Both the position numbers and the translations under genes were made by a program. Under the pieces are notes generated by a model. That model ran no database searches. It was not told the origin of the DNA and worked only from the letters and a program-made list of their open reading frames with translations. Shown here in pieces: positions 56,196 through 64,000 of a DNA stretch of 64,000 nucleotides. Source of the DNA: Stenotrophomonas sp. MMGLT7. Its GTDB lineage: Bacteria > Pseudomonadota > Gammaproteobacteria > Xanthomonadales > Xanthomonadaceae. Position 1 is the first letter of the stretch. Every line of letters begins with the position of its first letter. The stretch covers positions 62,001-126,000 of the forward strand of contig NZ_JAJOZS010000007.1 of assembly GCF_021168555.1 (NCBI RefSeq), written 5' to 3'.

Positions 56196-57269
56196 ATGAT
56201 CGAGATCCGGGGATTGCACAAGCGTTACCAGACGGCGGACGGCCACCACCCTGCCCTGCGCGGCGTGGACCTGCATGTCGGCACCGGCGAGATCTTCGGC
56301 ATCATCGGTCCCAGCGGCGCGGGCAAGAGCACGCTGGTCCAGTGCATCAACCTGCTCGAACGGCCGGACGCGGGCAGCATCGCCATCGGCGGGCAGACGC
56401 TGACCGGCCTGGACGAGGCACAGCTGCGCCGCCACCGCCAGCGCATCGGCATGGTGTTCCAGGGCTTCCACCTGATGACCCGGCGCACTGTCCACGGCAA
56501 CGTCGCGCTGCCGCTGGAGATCGCCGGCGTAGCCGCCGCGCAGGTCGGCCCGCGGGTGGACCGGCTGCTGGAACTGGTCGGCCTGTCGGCGCTGGGCGAG
56601 CGCTACCCGGCCCAGCTCAGCGGCGGGCAGAAGCAGCGGGTGGGCATCGCCCGCGCCCTGGCCAACGAACCGGACGTGCTGCTCAGCGACGAGGCGACCT
56701 CGGCGCTGGACCCGGAAACCACCGCCTCGATCCTGGCGCTGCTGCGCCGGATCAACCGCCAGACCGGCATCACCGTGGTGATGATCACCCACCAGATGGA
56801 CGTGGTGCGGGCCATCTGCGACCGGGTGGCGGTGCTCGACCAGGGCCAGGTGGTCGAACAGGGCGACACCGCCGAGCTGTTCGCCGCCCCGCGCCACCCG
56901 GTGACCCGGGCCATGGTCGCGGCGGCCACCGCCTCGGAACTGACCGCCGAGAGCCTGCAAGCCCTGCGCCGGCGCCTGGACCAGCGCGAAGCCGGCGACG
57001 GCGCGGCGAGCGTCCAGCTGTGGCGGCTGCGCCTGTGCGGCGGCGAGGCCGGGGACTGGATCTCCAGGCTCGCGCGCGATACCGGACTGGACCTGACCCT
57101 GCTGCAGGCCCGGGTCGAGGACATCCAGGGCAATGCCGTCGGCACCGTCTTCGTCCTTGCCCGCGGCAGCGCGGCAGCGCTCGAACAGGGCCGGCGGGCG
57201 CTGGGCGAGCACCGCATCCAGCCGCAGGTGGTGGAAATGGACGCACTGCAGGCAGGGAGCGGGCGATGA
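56196..57269 (+). CDS. metN: methionine ABC importer ATPase
   Basis: A 357-residue ATPase of the MetNIQ methionine importer. Walker A GPSGAGKS, signature LSGGQKQR, Walker B VLLSDEATSALDPE and switch His in ITHQMDVV are present, followed by a C-terminal NIL/ACT-like regulatory domain (about residues 270-340; residues VQLWRLRLCGG). The start at 56196 gives the family N-terminus MIEIRGLHKRY. It overlaps metI by four bases. I see no SAM-riboswitch-like sequence upstream. Confidence 0.95.
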   Translation: MIEIRGLHKRYQTADGHHPALRGVDLHVGTGEIFGIIGPSGAGKSTLVQCINLLERPDAGSIAIGGQTLTGLDEAQLRRHRQRIGMVFQGFHLMTRRTVHGNVALPLEIAGVAAAQVGPRVDRLLELVGLSALGERYPAQLSGGQKQRVGIARALANEPDVLLSDEATSALDPETTASILALLRRINRQTGITVVMITHQMDVVRAICDRVAVLDQGQVVEQGDTAELFAAPRHPVTRAMVAAATASELTAESLQALRRRLDQREAGDGAASVQLWRLRLCGGEAGDWISRLARDTGLDLTLLQARVEDIQGNAVGTVFVLARGSAAALEQGRRALGEHRIQPQVVEMDALQAGSGR

Positions 57270-57919
57270 GCGCGGCGATGCTGCAACTGCTGTGGCGCTC
57301 GCTGCTGGAGACCCTGCTGATGGTCGGCGTCTCCGGGCTGGTCGCGGTGCTGGCGGGAATCCCGCTCGGGGTGGCGCTGATCGTCAGCGAGCGCGGCGGG
57401 CTGGTGCCGTTCCCGCTGTTCAACCGCGTGCTGGGGGCACTGGTCAATGCCACCCGCTCGGTCCCGTTCGTGATCCTGATGGTGGCCATCGTGCCGCTGA
57501 CCCGGCTCGTCGCCGGGACCTCGATCGGCACCACCGCGGCGATCGTGCCGCTGGCGCTGGCGGCGATCCCGTTCATGGCCCGGCTGGCCGAGAACGCGCT
57601 GCGCGAGATCGACCCCGGGCTGGTGGTGGCGGCGCGGGCGATGGGCGCCTCGCCGCTGCAGGTGGTGCTAAAGATCATGCTGCCGGAGGCGCTGCCGGGG
57701 CTGGTGGCGGCGGTCACCGTGACCCTGATCGGCCTGATCGGCTACTCGGCGATGGCCGGCGCGATCGGCGGCGGCGGGCTCGGTGATCTGGGTATTCGCT
57801 ATGGTTATCAGCGCTTCCTGCCGGAAGTGATGGCGATCGTGGTAGTGGTATTGATCCTGCTGGTACAGCTGATCCAGAGCCTGAGCGATTGGCTGGTCCG
57901 CAGGCTTTCCCATCGCTGA
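57266..57919 (+). CDS. metI: methionine ABC importer permease
   Basis: A 217-residue inner-membrane protein with five helices, the MetI layout. The EAA-like coupling loop is AARAMGASPLQVVLKIMLPEALPG. The start overlaps the metN stop (ATGA), and metQ starts 17 bp downstream. Confidence 0.95.
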   Translation: MSAAMLQLLWRSLLETLLMVGVSGLVAVLAGIPLGVALIVSERGGLVPFPLFNRVLGALVNATRSVPFVILMVAIVPLTRLVAGTSIGTTAAIVPLALAAIPFMARLAENALREIDPGLVVAARAMGASPLQVVLKIMLPEALPGLVAAVTVTLIGLIGYSAMAGAIGGGGLGDLGIRYGYQRFLPEVMAIVVVVLILLVQLIQSLSDWLVRRLSHR

Positions 57920-57936
57920 CCCCAGGGGCCTCGTCC

Positions 57937-58758
57937 ATGCCTGTATCGTCCGTGCGCGCGCTGCCGCGCCTGTTCCGTCTCGTCGTGCCGGCACTGGCCG
58001 CGCTGGCACTGGCTGCCTGCGGCCGCGGCGGCGACGGCAGCGCCCCGCTCAAGGTCGGGGCGACCACCGGGCCGCACGCGGAGATCCTGGAGGTGGTCAA
58101 GGCCGAGGCCGCCAAGCAGGGATTGCCGATCGAGGTCGTGGAGTTCACCGACTACGTCCAGCCCAACGCCGCGCTCGAGGCCGGCGACCTGGACGCCAAC
58201 AGCTACCAGCACCTGCCGTACCTGGAGAGCACCAACGCCGACCGCGGCACCCACCTGGTCAGCCTCGGCCGCACCTTCGCCTCGCCCATCGCCGTCTACA
58301 GCCGCAAGTATCCGTCGCTGGACGCCCTGCCCGAGCGCGCCCGCATCGCCATCCCCAACGACCCGACCAACGGCGCGCGCAGCCTGCTGGTGCTGCAGCA
58401 GGCCGGCGTGATCGGCCTGCGCGCCGATGCCGGCATCCGTGCCGGCGTGCAGGACATCGAGGACAACCCGCGCCAGCTGCGCTTCGTCGAACTGGATGCC
58501 GCCCAGCTGCCGCGCTCGCTGGACGACGTCGATGCGGCTGCGGTCAACACCAACTACGCGCTGGAGGCCGGCCTGGACCCGGTACGCGAGTCGATCGCGC
58601 GCGAGGCGACCGACTCGCCCTACGTCAACGTGTTCGCGGTGCGCGCCGCCGACAAGGACCGGCCCGAACTGCATCGGCTGTACGACATCTATCGCAGCGA
58701 GCCGGTCAGGCAGTTCATCCTGGAACGCTACAAGGGCGCGCTGGTCCCGGCTTGGTGA
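57937..58758 (+). CDS. metQ: methionine-binding lipoprotein
   Basis: A 273-residue NlpA/MetQ-type substrate-binding lipoprotein with lipobox LALAACG and the family-typical KVGATTGPHAEILEVVKAEA, EVVEFTDYVQPN and ALEAGDLDANSYQHLPYL. It feeds D- or L-methionine to MetNI. GGGGCC precedes the ATG at 57937. An upstream in-frame Met would extend it into metI and is less likely. Confidence 0.94.
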   Translation: MPVSSVRALPRLFRLVVPALAALALAACGRGGDGSAPLKVGATTGPHAEILEVVKAEAAKQGLPIEVVEFTDYVQPNAALEAGDLDANSYQHLPYLESTNADRGTHLVSLGRTFASPIAVYSRKYPSLDALPERARIAIPNDPTNGARSLLVLQQAGVIGLRADAGIRAGVQDIEDNPRQLRFVELDAAQLPRSLDDVDAAAVNTNYALEAGLDPVRESIAREATDSPYVNVFAVRAADKDRPELHRLYDIYRSEPVRQFILERYKGALVPAW

Positions 58759-58906: not shown

Positions 58907-59761
58907 TCATGGATATGCGCGCTCGCGCAGCCACTTGGTGGCGATCCACTTCTCGCCTTCCAGCACCGGCGCGCCGGCGTGCAGGCTGCGCGTCATCGGG
59001 TGCGGGCGGTCGTAGCTGAAGAACACCGCATTGCCCTTGACCGCGGCCGCCTCGAACCTGGCGTCCGGGAACACCGTGGCACCGCCGCGGGCGGGCGTGT
59101 TGAGGTACATCACCAGCGTGGCCACGCGCTGGCCGCCGCACCTGGCCACCGCCTCGCTGCCGGCGCGCTGCGGATCGAAGTAGTCGTAGTGCGGGCGGTA
59201 CTCGGCTCCGGTGCCGTAGTGCAGTATCTGCAGGCCCTCGCCGTGGTCCAGCGGCCAGTCCAGCAATCGTGCGATCCGCGCCTCGATGCGCGCGCACAGC
59301 GCATTCTCGCCGCGGGCGAAGCAGGTCCCCCGGCTGGTCCTGTGCGCGTGCACGAGGCCCTCGCCGGTCTCGGGATCGACCGTGGTCGAGCGCGAGAGGC
59401 GACTGCGCGACAACCCCACCAGTGCGTCGCATTCCTCGTCCGACAGCAGCCCGCCGAGGACCACGACCCGCGGCAGCAGCATCTGCGCCAGGACCTGCAC
59501 CCGCCGGTCGCCGGCATCGAGCACCGCCGCGCCATTCAACTCGAACGCCGCCGGCACGCGCGCCGGCGGCGGTGATCCGGATTCCCGCGCCTGCTCGAGC
59601 AGGTAGCCGCGCACGGCCTCCTCCACCGCGTCGATCGCCTCCTGTTCGTTCCAACCGTCCGCATACAGCGCCTGCAGCACGACGCCGGGGTCCTGGCCGG
59701 CAAGCGCCTGCTCCACGGCCCAGCGTTCGAGTTCCGGCGACAGGTGTCGCGCCATGGGCAT
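58907..59761 (-). CDS. prolyl 4-hydroxylase-like 2-oxoglutarate/Fe(II) oxygenase
   Basis: A 284-residue cytoplasmic protein with no signal peptide. Residues about 1-70 are helical (LSPELERWAVEQALAGQDPG, then WNEQEAIDAVEEAV). The rest is a P4H-type double-stranded helix: Fe ligands in RPHYDYFD (HxD) and HPMTRSLHAG, and the 2-oxoglutarate-binding Lys in LEGEKWIATKW. Bacterial P4Hs with this fold hydroxylate prolines in proteins such as EF-Tu; the target here is unknown. The start at 59761 is preferred because an upstream start would lie inside a Pho-box-like sequence. Confidence 0.85.
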   Translation of the reverse strand: MPMARHLSPELERWAVEQALAGQDPGVVLQALYADGWNEQEAIDAVEEAVRGYLLEQARESGSPPPARVPAAFELNGAAVLDAGDRRVQVLAQMLLPRVVVLGGLLSDEECDALVGLSRSRLSRSTTVDPETGEGLVHAHRTSRGTCFARGENALCARIEARIARLLDWPLDHGEGLQILHYGTGAEYRPHYDYFDPQRAGSEAVARCGGQRVATLVMYLNTPARGGATVFPDARFEAAAVKGNAVFFSYDRPHPMTRSLHAGAPVLEGEKWIATKWLRERAYP

Positions 59762-59819
59762 CGTCCCGCCGCGGGCGGGCTCCAGCAAAGGACCTGGTGA
59801 CGGAAATTCCATCACGGCC

Positions 59820-59837
59820 ATGACAACGCCATGACAG
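59820..59837 (-). promoter_or_regulatory. Pho box facing the prolyl-hydroxylase-like gene
   Basis: Read on the minus strand, 59837 to 59820 is CTGTCATGGCGTTGTCAT: CTGTCAT, four bases, then TTGTCAT, matching the PhoB box (CTGTCAT-N4-CTGTCAT) at 13 of 14 positions. A weak -10-like GAATTT follows after 10 bp, the E. coli phoA spacing. It lies 59 bp upstream of the start at 59761. Confidence 0.7.
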
Positions 59838-59904
59838 CTGCCCGGCACGCATTTCGATCCCCGCAGGAAGGCACGCTCAGGCATCGGCTCGGTGTCGGGA
59901 GAAC

Positions 59905-59938
59905 GAGTCACCGACCTGTCACAGACAGCACCTATAAA
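59905..59938 (+). promoter_or_regulatory. Pho box and -10 for the lipoprotein / TonB receptor operon
   Basis: GAGTCAC-CGAC-CTGTCAC (59905-59922) matches the two-heptamer PhoB box, weaker in the first heptamer. The -10 hexamer TATAAA (59933-59938) follows exactly 10 bp after the box, as in the E. coli phoA promoter, with no standard -35. This predicts a roughly 115-base leader before the ATG at 60059. Confidence 0.65.
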
Positions 59939-60058
59939 TCTTCCTTAACGCAAGCCATACGGATCGCGCGCCCGCATCCGATCGCGAGCGAACTGTGGCC
60001 TGTCCCCGCTTCCCTTGAATTCCTTTTCGAACACTCACTTTTTTGGAGAGAGAGCATC

Positions 60059-61522
60059 ATGTCGTCCAGCCACAATGCCAAGACCCTCCTGATGACCTTC
60101 GCCGCCGCCTTCGCCCTCAGCGGCTGCGGCGGCGGTGCCGACAAGGTGGTCTCCCCCGGCACCCCGAGCAATCCGCCGGCCCCGACTCCCACGCCGAGCC
60201 CCACGCCGACCCCCACGCCATCGCCGGGCGGCAGCGCCGCCGAGAGCTGCCCGGACGGCACCGTCAACCAGGGCACCATCGCCAGCGACAGCCTGCGCGC
60301 CTGCCGCCTGCCTTCGGAAATCCTCGGCGACCTGACCCTGCGCAACATCGACGGCGTGGCCTACCAGATCCAGGGCCAGGTCAACGTCGGCCAGGACCAG
60401 CTGGGCGACAGCGCGGTCAACGATGCCTCCAAGCGCGGCCGCCTGCTGATCGAACCGGGCGTGACCCTGTTCGGCTCCAGCGGCCCGGACGTGCTGCTGG
60501 TGCAGCGCGGCTCGCAGATCCACGCGCTGGGCACCCGCGAGCAACCCATCGTCTTCACCTCGCGCAACGACCTGGAAGGCAACGGCGCCAAGTTCGACTG
60601 GGCCGGCGTGGTGCTGATGGGGCGCGCGCCGATCAACAACTGCATCGGCGGCGCCACTCCCGGCGCGGCCGACTGCCAGGGCGCGGTGGAAGGCACCAGC
60701 AACGCCTACGGCGGCGGCAACGATCCGACCGACAGCAGCGGCGAAATGAGCTACGTGCAGATCCGCTACTCCGGCTACGTCCTCGGCGCCGGCAACGAAC
60801 TGCAGTCGCTGACCCTGGTCGGCGTCGGCAGCGGCACCAAGATCGACCACTTCCAGTCGCACTACAGCGGCGACGACGGCATCGAGATCTTCGGCGGCAC
60901 GGTCAACCTGAGCCACATCGTCATCACCGAGGCCGACGATGACTCGCTGGATACCGACTGGGGCTGGAGCGGCGGCGTCCAGTACGGCCTGGTCGTGCGC
61001 AAGACCCCGTCGGTGAAGGGCGTCGCCGACTCCGGCTCGATCTTCGAGTGGTCGGCCCTGGACCAGACCCCGACCTCGACGCCGAAGGTGTCCAACTTCA
61101 CCGTCTACACCACCGACCCGACGCTGGACTCGCTGGTCAAGGTCAACCAGGGCACCAACGCATACGTGTGGAACAGCGTGCTGGTGACCGCCCCGGCCTC
61201 GGCCAACCAGAAGCAGGCCGACGTGTGCTTCGACATCACCGGCACCGGCACCGGCATCGAACTGCTGTCGAACCACTTCACCTGCGACAAGCGCGACAAG
61301 AACTCCGAGACGACCGCCAAGGTCGATGCGGCCACCAAGACCGGCACCGTGTTCGGCGCCTCGACCCTGACCAGCGCCTACATCAACGGCCAGAACGAGA
61401 ACGCGGTGACGCCGGCCGCGGTCAACGCCAAGCACGGCTTCTTCGACGACGTGGACTACATCGGCGCGGCCAAGGACGCCAACGACGCCTGGTGGCAGGG
61501 CTGGACGGTCGGCCTGGAGTAA
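60059..61522 (+). CDS. surface lipoprotein with Pro/Thr/Ser linker and beta-helix-like domain
   Basis: A 487-residue lipoprotein (lipobox ALSGCGGG near residue 23). The mature N-terminus has a roughly 25-residue linker of repeated Pro-Thr and Pro-Ser. The remainder resembles the right-handed beta-helix proteins found with TonB-dependent receptors: GRLLIEPGVTLFGSSGPDVL, RGSQIHALGTREQPIVFTSR, HYSGDDGIEIFGGTVNLSH. Four Cys lie outside the lipobox. I do not know a function. GGAGAGAG precedes the start. It sits upstream of a TonB-dependent receptor gene, so it may be its surface-exposed partner. Confidence 0.8.
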   Translation: MSSSHNAKTLLMTFAAAFALSGCGGGADKVVSPGTPSNPPAPTPTPSPTPTPTPSPGGSAAESCPDGTVNQGTIASDSLRACRLPSEILGDLTLRNIDGVAYQIQGQVNVGQDQLGDSAVNDASKRGRLLIEPGVTLFGSSGPDVLLVQRGSQIHALGTREQPIVFTSRNDLEGNGAKFDWAGVVLMGRAPINNCIGGATPGAADCQGAVEGTSNAYGGGNDPTDSSGEMSYVQIRYSGYVLGAGNELQSLTLVGVGSGTKIDHFQSHYSGDDGIEIFGGTVNLSHIVITEADDDSLDTDWGWSGGVQYGLVVRKTPSVKGVADSGSIFEWSALDQTPTSTPKVSNFTVYTTDPTLDSLVKVNQGTNAYVWNSVLVTAPASANQKQADVCFDITGTGTGIELLSNHFTCDKRDKNSETTAKVDAATKTGTVFGASTLTSAYINGQNENAVTPAAVNAKHGFFDDVDYIGAAKDANDAWWQGWTVGLE

Positions 61523-61582: not shown

Positions 61583-61618
61583 CATCAAGCCTGCCCGATG
61601 CAGCCAAGGTCCACGCCC

Positions 61619-64000
61619 ATGACGTCCTCCAATCCCCGATCCAATCCATTGCGCCGCGGCCTGTTCATCGCCATCGGCACGGCGCTGGCCCAGCCCGTGC
61701 TGGCCCAGGAAACCACGCAACAGACAACGCCGCAGGCCACCCAGATCGACACGGTGACCGTGCGCGGCGAGTACATCCCCGAACCGATGGCCAACACCGC
61801 CGAGGTGGCCAGCTTCGTCACCCGGGAAGATCTCCAGCGCACCGGCGACAGCGATGCCGCGCAGGCACTGGCCCGCGTCAGCGGCCTGAGCGTGGTCGGC
61901 GATAAGTACGTGTACGTGCGCGGCCTCGGCGAGCGCTATTCCTCGGCGCTGTTCAACGGCTCGCCGCTGCCCTCGCCCGAACCGATGCAGCGCGTGGTGC
62001 CGCTGGACCTGTTCCCGAGCGAGGCGCTGCAGAGCATGACCGTGCAGAAGACCTATTCGGCCAGGTACCCCGGCGAGTTCGGCGGCGGCGTGATCGACCT
62101 GCAGAGCCTGAACGTGCCGGAAGACAGCTTCCTCAAGCTGTCCATCGGCATCGGCGGCAACAGCGTCACCACCCGCGAGAAGGGCCTGACCTACTACGGC
62201 GGCGGCGACAGCGACTGGTGGGGCTACGACGACGGCCGCCGCGACCTGCCCAGCGAGGTCATCCACAGCCACCAGGCACTGACCCAGGCCAACTACAGCC
62301 GCGAATGGCTGGCCGCGTTCGGCAGCGCGCTGAACAACCCCAACCTGTTCGTGCTGCAGCAGAAGAACAAGATCGATCCGGACTTCAACTTCGGCGGCAG
62401 CGCCGGCACCTCGTACGACATCGGCGACGACCTGAAACTGGGCGTCGTCGCGGTGGCCGACTTCAAGAACGAATGGCGCACCCGCACCGGCAAGCAGCAG
62501 AACGGCGTGTTCACCGGCGCCGGCGCGGACACCTACGAGGACTACGACTTCGCCACCACGCGCATGAACGCCCGCGTCAACGGCCTGCTCGGCCTCGGCC
62601 TGCAGGGCCGGCGCCACTCGCTGTCGTGGAACACCCTGTACGTGCACGACACGCTCAAGGAAGCCAAGTCCCGCGACGGCTACAACTTCAACGTCGGCGT
62701 CGACATCCGCGAGGACGGCACCCTGTGGCTGGAGCGCAAGCTGATCAACCACCAGCTGTCCGGCAAGAGCAGCTTCGGCGAATACGACGACTTGAAGGTC
62801 GAATGGCGCCTGGCCAAGTCCAAGGCGACCCGCACCACCCCCTACGAGACCAGCGTCCGCTACGCCGACATCGACGGCACCTGGCTGCACGGCAGCGGCA
62901 ACAACTCGCTCAAGTTCGGCGCGGTGGACGACGAGGTGGCCAGCGGCGGCGTCGATTTCGTCTGGCGCCTGCCGATCGAGCGCGAGCTGAGCCTGAGCTT
63001 CGGCGCGGCCTATTCCGACAACGACCGCGAAGCGGTGCAGCGCAGCTTCCGCTTCGACACGACCAACAATGCCGCCCTGCCCGTGTACAACCAGTACCAG
63101 CGCATCGACTACCTGTTCTCGGACTACAACTTCCAGAACGGCCTGCTGACCCTGAACGAGATCACCGCCAACAACAACGGCGAGTCGGCCTACAAGGGCA
63201 CGCTCAAGACCAAGGCGGCCTACCTGCAACTGGAAGGCGACATCGCCCCGGCGTGGCGCGCGGCGCTGGGCCTGCGCTACGAAGACGCCACCCAGGCGGT
63301 GCATCCGCTGGACATCTTCAGCGGCGCGCGCGTCGGCGGCATCTACGCCACCGCCCCGCTGCAGAACGACTACCTCCTGCCGGCGCTGACCATCACCTGG
63401 AACTTCGCCGAGAACCAGCAGATCCGCCTCGGCGCGTCCAAGACCATCGCCCGCCCGCAGTTCCGCGAACTGGCCCCGCAGCAGTACACCGACCCGGACA
63501 ACGACCGCCTGTTCTTCGGCAATCCGTACCTGGTGGACAGCGAACTGGTCAACCTGGACCTGCGCTACGAATGGTTCTTCGGCGCCGGCGAGTACTTCAC
63601 CGCCGGGCTGTTCCACAAGCACATCGACAAGCCGGTGGAAGCGGTGGTCGGCGATTTCGGCGGAAACCAGCTGTTCCAGGGCTTCCTCAATGCACCGGAA
63701 GCCACCTTGTACGGCGCCGAGATCGAATACAAGAAGTACTTCGACCCCGGCTTCAACTGGCTCGGCGACGGCCGCCTCTACTTCGCCAGCAACTACACCT
63801 GGTCCAAGTCGGAAGTGAACAGCAAGGACAGCGACACGGTGATCCCGCCGGGCTTCAACGGCGTGCCGCAGGCAGCCAGCAGCTTCGTCCGCGACGGCAG
63901 CCAGATGCAGGGCCAGAGCGAACACATCGCCAACCTCCAGTTCGGCGTGGAAAGCGAAAGCGCCGACCTGCAGGCGACCCTGATCGCCAACTACGTCAGC
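61619..64000 (+). CDS. TonB-dependent outer-membrane receptor (3' end beyond the window)
   Basis: The frame from ATG 61619 is open for 794 codons to the window end, so the C-terminus is missing. A signal peptide (LFIAIGTALAQPVLA) and TonB-box-like region (IDTVTVRGEY) precede a plug (about residues 50-165, VSGLSVVGDKYVYVRGLGERYSS, NGSPLPSPEP, GEFGGGVIDLQS). A beta-barrel rich in aromatic strands follows, ending at residue 794 here. AAGG stands nine bases before the start; an alternative is ATG at 61598. It should import a large or scarce ligand using TonB energy. Pho boxes upstream of its lipoprotein partner suggest a phosphate-linked ligand. Confidence 0.9.
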   Translation, partial: MTSSNPRSNPLRRGLFIAIGTALAQPVLAQETTQQTTPQATQIDTVTVRGEYIPEPMANTAEVASFVTREDLQRTGDSDAAQALARVSGLSVVGDKYVYVRGLGERYSSALFNGSPLPSPEPMQRVVPLDLFPSEALQSMTVQKTYSARYPGEFGGGVIDLQSLNVPEDSFLKLSIGIGGNSVTTREKGLTYYGGGDSDWWGYDDGRRDLPSEVIHSHQALTQANYSREWLAAFGSALNNPNLFVLQQKNKIDPDFNFGGSAGTSYDIGDDLKLGVVAVADFKNEWRTRTGKQQNGVFTGAGADTYEDYDFATTRMNARVNGLLGLGLQGRRHSLSWNTLYVHDTLKEAKSRDGYNFNVGVDIREDGTLWLERKLINHQLSGKSSFGEYDDLKVEWRLAKSKATRTTPYETSVRYADIDGTWLHGSGNNSLKFGAVDDEVASGGVDFVWRLPIERELSLSFGAAYSDNDREAVQRSFRFDTTNNAALPVYNQYQRIDYLFSDYNFQNGLLTLNEITANNNGESAYKGTLKTKAAYLQLEGDIAPAWRAALGLRYEDATQAVHPLDIFSGARVGGIYATAPLQNDYLLPALTITWNFAENQQIRLGASKTIARPQFRELAPQQYTDPDNDRLFFGNPYLVDSELVNLDLRYEWFFGAGEYFTAGLFHKHIDKPVEAVVGDFGGNQLFQGFLNAPEATLYGAEIEYKKYFDPGFNWLGDGRLYFASNYTWSKSEVNSKDSDTVIPPGFNGVPQAASSFVRDGSQMQGQSEHIANLQFGVESESADLQATLIANYVS

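Follow-up and report, generated by a model that had tools for sequence, protein, structure and literature searches.

Is the gap between two divergent genes of Stenotrophomonas sp. MMGLT7 a phosphate-responsive switch and, if so, which genes would it control? The window, by which we mean the whole 64,000-nucleotide stretch of DNA that was analysed, contains an intergenic gap of ∼300 bp with a prolyl-4-hydroxylase-like gene on one side and a lipoprotein gene followed by a TonB-dependent receptor gene on the other. The original prediction, made from the letters of the sequence, placed two opposed Pho boxes in this gap and proposed phosphate control in both directions.

Two opposed Pho boxes in the divergent gap

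Read directly from the sequence, the gap holds two heptamer pairs of 7-4-7 layout, opposed and back to back. On the minus strand, CTGTCAT-GGCG-TTGTCAT (59820..59837) faces the hydroxylase gene; predicted as a near-perfect PhoB box, it proved to have no mismatch to YTGTCAY-N4-YTGTCAY when read from 59837 to 59820. On the plus strand, GAGTCAC-CGAC-CTGTCAC (59905..59922), with two mismatches to the same consensus, faces the lipoprotein operon, and a spacer of exactly 10 bp (59923-59932) separates it from the −10 hexamer TATAAA (59933..59938), so that the whole predicted arrangement is present at 59905-59938. Both boxes have the heptamer-N4-heptamer form of PhoB-dependent promoters, and the plus side also has the −10 hexamer at 10 bp that such promoters use without need of a −35 element. 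On the minus side the hexamer 10 bp past the box is GAATTT (59804..59809), as poor as the prediction had warned. A simple scan of locus L008 2600-7600 gave no promoter of sigma-70 type.

The layout had been likened to that of the Escherichia coli phoA promoter, and the likeness holds in E. coli genomes: a 41-base query for that promoter (box, 10 bp, TATAGT) matched 5198 of 5426 genomes and lay 40 bp before phoA in one record that was inspected. In both promoters the direct heptamers are spaced at 11 bp and the −10 lies 10 bp beyond them, with no −35, and the phoA box scores 16.5 bits with the pstS-trained matrix described below. They differ in that the first heptamer is weaker here, that two units stand back to back in one gap and that no good −10 accompanies the minus box.

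The boxes score on a par with the pstS and phoB promoters

A scan with a loose consensus is uninformative by itself, since shuffling the window 100 times gave at least as many matches (2 or more) in 54 cases when two mismatches were permitted. We therefore used a matrix trained on other genomes. It was built from 29 pstS upstream regions of other genomes of the family, 17 of which have a heptamer-N4-heptamer site 76-87 bp before the aligned start; 16 distinct sites were used, with the two heptamers pooled, and the 12 regions with no site under the anchor rule were left out. With this matrix the minus box scores 16.8 bits and the plus box 16.2 bits, ranks 1 and 2 among 127,966 window positions, against 10.4 bits for the next position and a maximum of 7.9 bits upstream of 56 other scorable predicted genes of the window. 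With the unpooled matrix the ranks among the same positions are 4 for the minus box and 1 for the plus box. The genome's own pstS and phoB boxes score 18.7 and 16.4 bits with the same matrix, on a par with those in the gap. Elsewhere in this genome, in stretches mostly picked for holding a box, the two scores are equalled or exceeded at 4 and 5 of 189,744 positions. In a matrix scan of the kind that the original prediction had proposed, both boxes thus stand clear of the GC-rich background. Genome-wide, TGTCAY-N4-YTGTCAY with at most one mismatch occurs 10 times (three perfect matches) as compared with 2 in the reversed control, and both gap boxes are among the 10.

Conservation of the plus promoter

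The named-genome scan found 573 relatives, of which the best 80 were kept; the nearest among these 80 are Lysobacteraceae bacterium NML93-0793 and Luteimonas deserti, and a divergent hydroxylase gene is present in 16 of the 80 loci. For the tests in gaps with a divergent hydroxylase gene, 8 of 30 were dropped as near-duplicates and, with the window excluded, 21 were tested; 10 of 61 loci without the hydroxylase were likewise dropped, leaving 51.

The plus site was conserved, as the prediction requires. TGTCAY-N10-TATAAT (12 positions) beat shuffles at p<0.05 in 15 of the 21 deduplicated gaps (Fisher 5e-18), and the plus matrix did so in equally many (Fisher 8e-16); these and the other Fisher values across relatives are overstated because relatives share kinship and are not independent. 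When TGTCAY-N10-TATAA was sought in 16 genomes, 9 matches were found, as compared with 0 in the reversed control; six of the nine are the plus promoter, with its −10 hexamer. The other three matches, TGTCAC-N10-TATAA in one genus (L077, L078, L079), precede the gene for a secreted-looking protein beginning MPKPSLLSLL, a possible Pho target. Two loci, L012 and L080, lack the −10 at 10 bp despite a strong plus box. The first plus heptamer had been listed as a weak point, and GAGTCAC is indeed weak; nevertheless, it is often poor in relatives too (CTGAAAG, GCGCAAG, CTGCAAG), so that its weakness is no objection.

Real sequence served as a further control in 11 named loci. The region upstream of the lipoprotein gene reaches at least 10 bits in 7 of the 11 (p=1.3e-5 versus 96 other genes) and that upstream of the hydroxylase gene in 5 of the 11 (p=1.6e-5 versus the same 96); the control genes that reach this score (8 of 96) are all gspC or TonB_C-like genes from this part of the genome, around the same cluster. 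In the 51 deduplicated loci without the hydroxylase, the forward box has p<0.05 in 31 and the reverse strand in 9, the reverse-strand control being itself enriched (Fisher 2.8e-7 versus 3.9e-29 forward). Among 18 loci titled with a Caulobacteraceae genus or Caulobacterales, some of which were dropped as near-duplicates, L098 alone passes at p<0.05.

The plus-side genes have the order of an ElpS-type cluster and continue into pst

The plus-side lipoprotein gene (60059..61522, plus strand) encodes an ElpS-like protein of 487 aa with a lipobox Cys23, a Pro-rich linker and a strand-rich domain. Its sequence has no match in Pfam or NCBIfam and, in a sequence search with its alignment, none in the PDB. 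The AlphaFold2 model (mean pLDDT 88) contains many strands, and the Foldseek list for it is led by tailspikes and pectate lyases, which we take to be parallel β-helices; the scores are poor (best E 9e-4, TM 0.17-0.36), so that at most a fold class can be assigned, and the modelled domain is probably a parallel β-helix. The receptor gene follows (61598..64000, plus strand), with an uncertain start (61544, 61598, 61619 or 61649) and a stop at 64252, beyond the window.

The predicted direction of the plus box, towards lipoprotein and receptor, was correct, but the gene set was drawn too small. Downstream of the receptor the plus strand continues with gspC, gspD, gspE, gspF and more genes of a type II secretion system (T2SS), and then with pstS, pstC, pstA, pstB and phoU, the later T2SS genes and pstC, pstA and pstB being named by gene order and our reading. 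The pstS gene lies ∼15 kb downstream on the same strand as the lipoprotein operon. Among 119 family genomes searched, 15 others have the lipoprotein, at 46-84% identity; in 10 of these 15, pstS follows farther along that strand within one contig, and the hydroxylase gene divergently adjoins the lipoprotein gene in 13. In one of the remaining two (G017) the hydroxylase gene is elsewhere in the cluster, and in the other the match ends at an apparent contig end. A weaker Pho-like box precedes gspC (12.5 bits here; 3.4-15.5 bits in 13 relatives). In L008 2600-7600 there are two terminator-like sites, as compared with 3.3 in shuffles, and one of them lies between receptor and gspC. A second gspD stands elsewhere in the genome, which makes two above the cut-off in total.

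This order recalls a published system. A study of Caulobacter crescentus gives the order cc0170 (ElpS), cc0171, gspC-N, and names Xanthomonas campestris among others with the same order; it describes ElpS as surface-anchored, produced on phosphate starvation and cleaved close to residue 38, with a protease exported through the T2SS apparently responsible (PMC2996285). According to a second source, the Caulobacter T2SS belongs to the PhoB regulon (PMC11208175). Compared with that published description, the lipoprotein, TonB-dependent receptor and T2SS genes, with gspC in third place, stand here in the same order on one strand. The locus differs in its divergent prolyl hydroxylase, in the pst genes at its end and in a linker that is Pro-rich here and Gly-rich in most Caulobacteraceae relatives seen. 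The lipoprotein is 39-46% identical to proteins of Caulobacteraceae-titled loci that also have a receptor gene downstream. The study just cited on C. crescentus (PMC2996285) describes the cc0171 receptor as constitutive and the Caulobacter T2SS genes as expressed irrespective of conditions, and it is therefore not certain that the cluster is one operon under one switch. A further likeness, by description, is to Hxc of Pseudomonas aeruginosa, which is reported to be one of two T2SSs and to accumulate at low phosphate (PMC9769906); two gspD genes are present here.

The minus box and the hydroxylase gene

The minus-side gene (58907..59761, minus strand; probable start at an ATG, 59761 or 59755, with the frame open farther upstream) encodes a homologue of prolyl 4-hydroxylases (P4Hs), a 2OG-Fe(II) oxygenase of PF13640. 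It aligns with solved P4Hs over ∼190-205 residues (E 3e-43 for the 3itq/5hv0 group, 2e-42 for 2jig/3gze), from which it differs by ∼75-90 extra residues before the matched part and by the Pho box upstream of its gene. The HxD...H motif and lysine of the family are found in it, with H190, D192, H260 and K270 as candidate active-site residues; all 30 aligned homologues share HxD...H, and 29 of the 30 have the lysine, which we take to be the residue that binds 2OG. In a genome with no lipoprotein match (L177), the aligned C-terminal end of the homologue is without this lysine. By our reading of its N terminus, the protein appears to have no evident signal peptide.

Conservation is lower for the minus box than for the plus box. 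The minus matrix gave p<0.05 in 11 of the 21 gaps, about half (Fisher 2e-13), while the box was not detected in the three closest relatives examined (L012, L080, L081) and has p≥0.05 in 7 further gaps of the 21; conservation in related species thus came out as predicted for the plus site and in part for the minus site. The minus box combined with a −10, tried as a conserved unit, was weak across the 21 gaps (Fisher 0.014). These shortfalls, together with the poor GAATTT, would fit a locus in which only the plus box works in a promoter; its minus counterpart would then be an extra PhoB site for the plus operon or a relic, and the hydroxylase gene would not be regulated by phosphate. We consider this unlikely, given the minus-matrix result and two further observations. 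First, hexamers of the form TAGGCT, TAAGCT, TAGCGT or TAGCAT, better than GAATTT, stand exactly 10 bp past the minus box in some relatives. Second, the box accompanies hydroxylase genes of this cluster: when the near-duplicates L169, L170 and L173 are dropped from 15 linked genes, the remaining 12 have better upstream boxes than 15 unlinked homologues (p=1.5e-5), whose scores range from −11 to 1.7 bits. Two linked genes are at background score; the relocated gene of G017, which sits between T2SS genes and pst, has kept a 17.0-bit box upstream. The minus box may depend more on contact between PhoB and polymerase because its −10 is poor, or it may be decaying.

A probable divergent pair of PhoB promoters

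We think it very probable, from the sequence evidence above, that two PhoB-activated promoters diverge from the gap, with the lipoprotein, receptor and T2SS genes on the plus side and the hydroxylase gene on the minus side. Score and conservation give good support to the phosphate control that the original prediction proposed, and firmer support on the plus side than on the minus. Binding by PhoB, induction, the arrangement into operons and the roles of the gene products are what we infer from sequence, as follows. At low phosphate, phosphorylated PhoB would bind each direct heptamer pair. On the plus side it would replace the −35 and recruit RNA polymerase to TATAAA at 10 bp, turning on the ElpS-like surface lipoprotein and the TonB-dependent receptor; the second T2SS, for phosphate scavenging, would follow by read-through or be aided by the weak box before gspC, and pstSCAB-phoU, next on the same strand, has a box to itself. 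In the opposite direction, the mismatch-free minus box would turn on a prolyl 4-hydroxylase that has no visible signal peptide.

A profile search found one gene above the curated cut-off for PhoB in the genome, and from its position and own sequence we infer that the histidine kinase encoded beside it is PhoR, which would give the genome both phoB and phoR. Since 17 genome matches span the PhoB model almost from end to end and 16 of these fall below the cut-off, there are many related regulators, and another member of the OmpR/PhoB family with a similar preference for direct repeats could in principle read these sites. We regard this as very improbable, because the pstS-derived matrix also recovers the genome's own phoB and pstS promoters and because pstS and phoU end the cluster. 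Chance resemblance within a GC-rich gap, which the loose-consensus shuffles would allow, is contradicted by the matrix ranks, the genome-wide control, the low scores of other window genes, the count of TGTCAY-N10-TATAA in 16 genomes (9 versus 0 in the control) and the conservation among 21 relatives, and its probability is very small.

An operon of ElpS type is known; a hydroxylase joined to the Pho regulon would add a new part. Among the matches listed in a literature search, which drew mostly on papers outside subscription, no prolyl hydroxylase was placed under PhoB, and its link to phosphate, as read from this sequence, looks new. For many Lysobacteraceae, the finding suggests that lipoprotein, TonB receptor, second T2SS and Pst belong to a single cluster for acquiring phosphate, served by conserved Pho promoters. 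The second T2SS would thereby gain a likely purpose.

A candidate substrate next door

What would a starvation-induced prolyl hydroxylase act on? A candidate substrate is encoded next door: the linker of the lipoprotein, which after Cys23 is Pro-rich and predicted to be disordered. Every one of the 16 named loci that have the hydroxylase (from the best 80 of 573) encodes a Pro-rich linker behind the lipobox Cys, and this linker is the counterpart of the region in which Caulobacter ElpS is cut. We offer, tentatively and as a rather doubtful proposal, that the hydroxylase modifies this linker before export, thereby tuning cleavage by a protease that the adjacent T2SS secretes and shedding of the outer domain from the cell surface. 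In 33 genomes that we selected from these best 80 loci, PxP/PPP is commoner in the linkers of 24 with a P4H homologue than in 9 without (p=1.4e-5), a comparison in which clade and trait are inseparable, as all 9 are Caulobacteraceae by title.

The hydroxylase may instead act on another cytosolic protein, its place beside the lipoprotein gene reflecting only shared regulation. EF-Tu is a substrate of a prolyl hydroxylase in Pseudomonas. To this alternative we give a chance not far short of even. It would account for Sphingomonadales loci with PTPTP linkers but no adjoining hydroxylase gene, for two Brevundimonas genomes that pair a homologue with Gly-rich linkers (the counterexamples to the match between linker and P4H are L106 and L116) and for genome G041, which has no lipoprotein but retains a homologue with all four residues. 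Shared regulation does less well with the adjacency in 13 of 15 other genomes and with the distribution of the two genes: in the 119 family genomes, the hydroxylase (at least 56% identity) occurs in 17, the lipoprotein (at least 45%) in 16 and both in 15, with 3 discordant (Fisher 5e-16, kinship ignored; the cut-offs of 45% and 56% were set after viewing the lists, where the next values were 39% and 51%).

Other Pho boxes and neighbouring genes

Outside the window, the genome has boxes of 16.7 bits before a PF00884 sulfatase-family protein (L001 5729-5746), 21.1 bits before an alpha/beta hydrolase (L002 5800-5817) and 17.7 bits before an outer-membrane protein with a CarboxypepD_reg domain (L003 5736-5753). 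A Pho-like box with one mismatch (L004 5306-5323) faces genes read as a response regulator, a kinase and a periplasmic-binding-like protein, with porin-like and transporter-like genes, also named by reading, on its other side.

In the window, an endonuclease III-like gene is separated from the hydroxylase gene by genes for an ABC ATPase, a permease and an NlpA-type lipoprotein (PF03180) that we read as MetNIQ (56196-58758); three Luteimonas loci have a TonB_C gene in this place. Very strong boxes (18.4-23.9 bits) precede hydroxylase-side TonB_C genes of Luteimonas at L089 5034-5726, L090 5156-5842, L102 2127-2807 and L110 5061-5750, the domain being assigned by Pfam in L089 and L102 and by similar sequence in L090 and L110. 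With so strong a box before its gene, this TonB protein may share the regulon.
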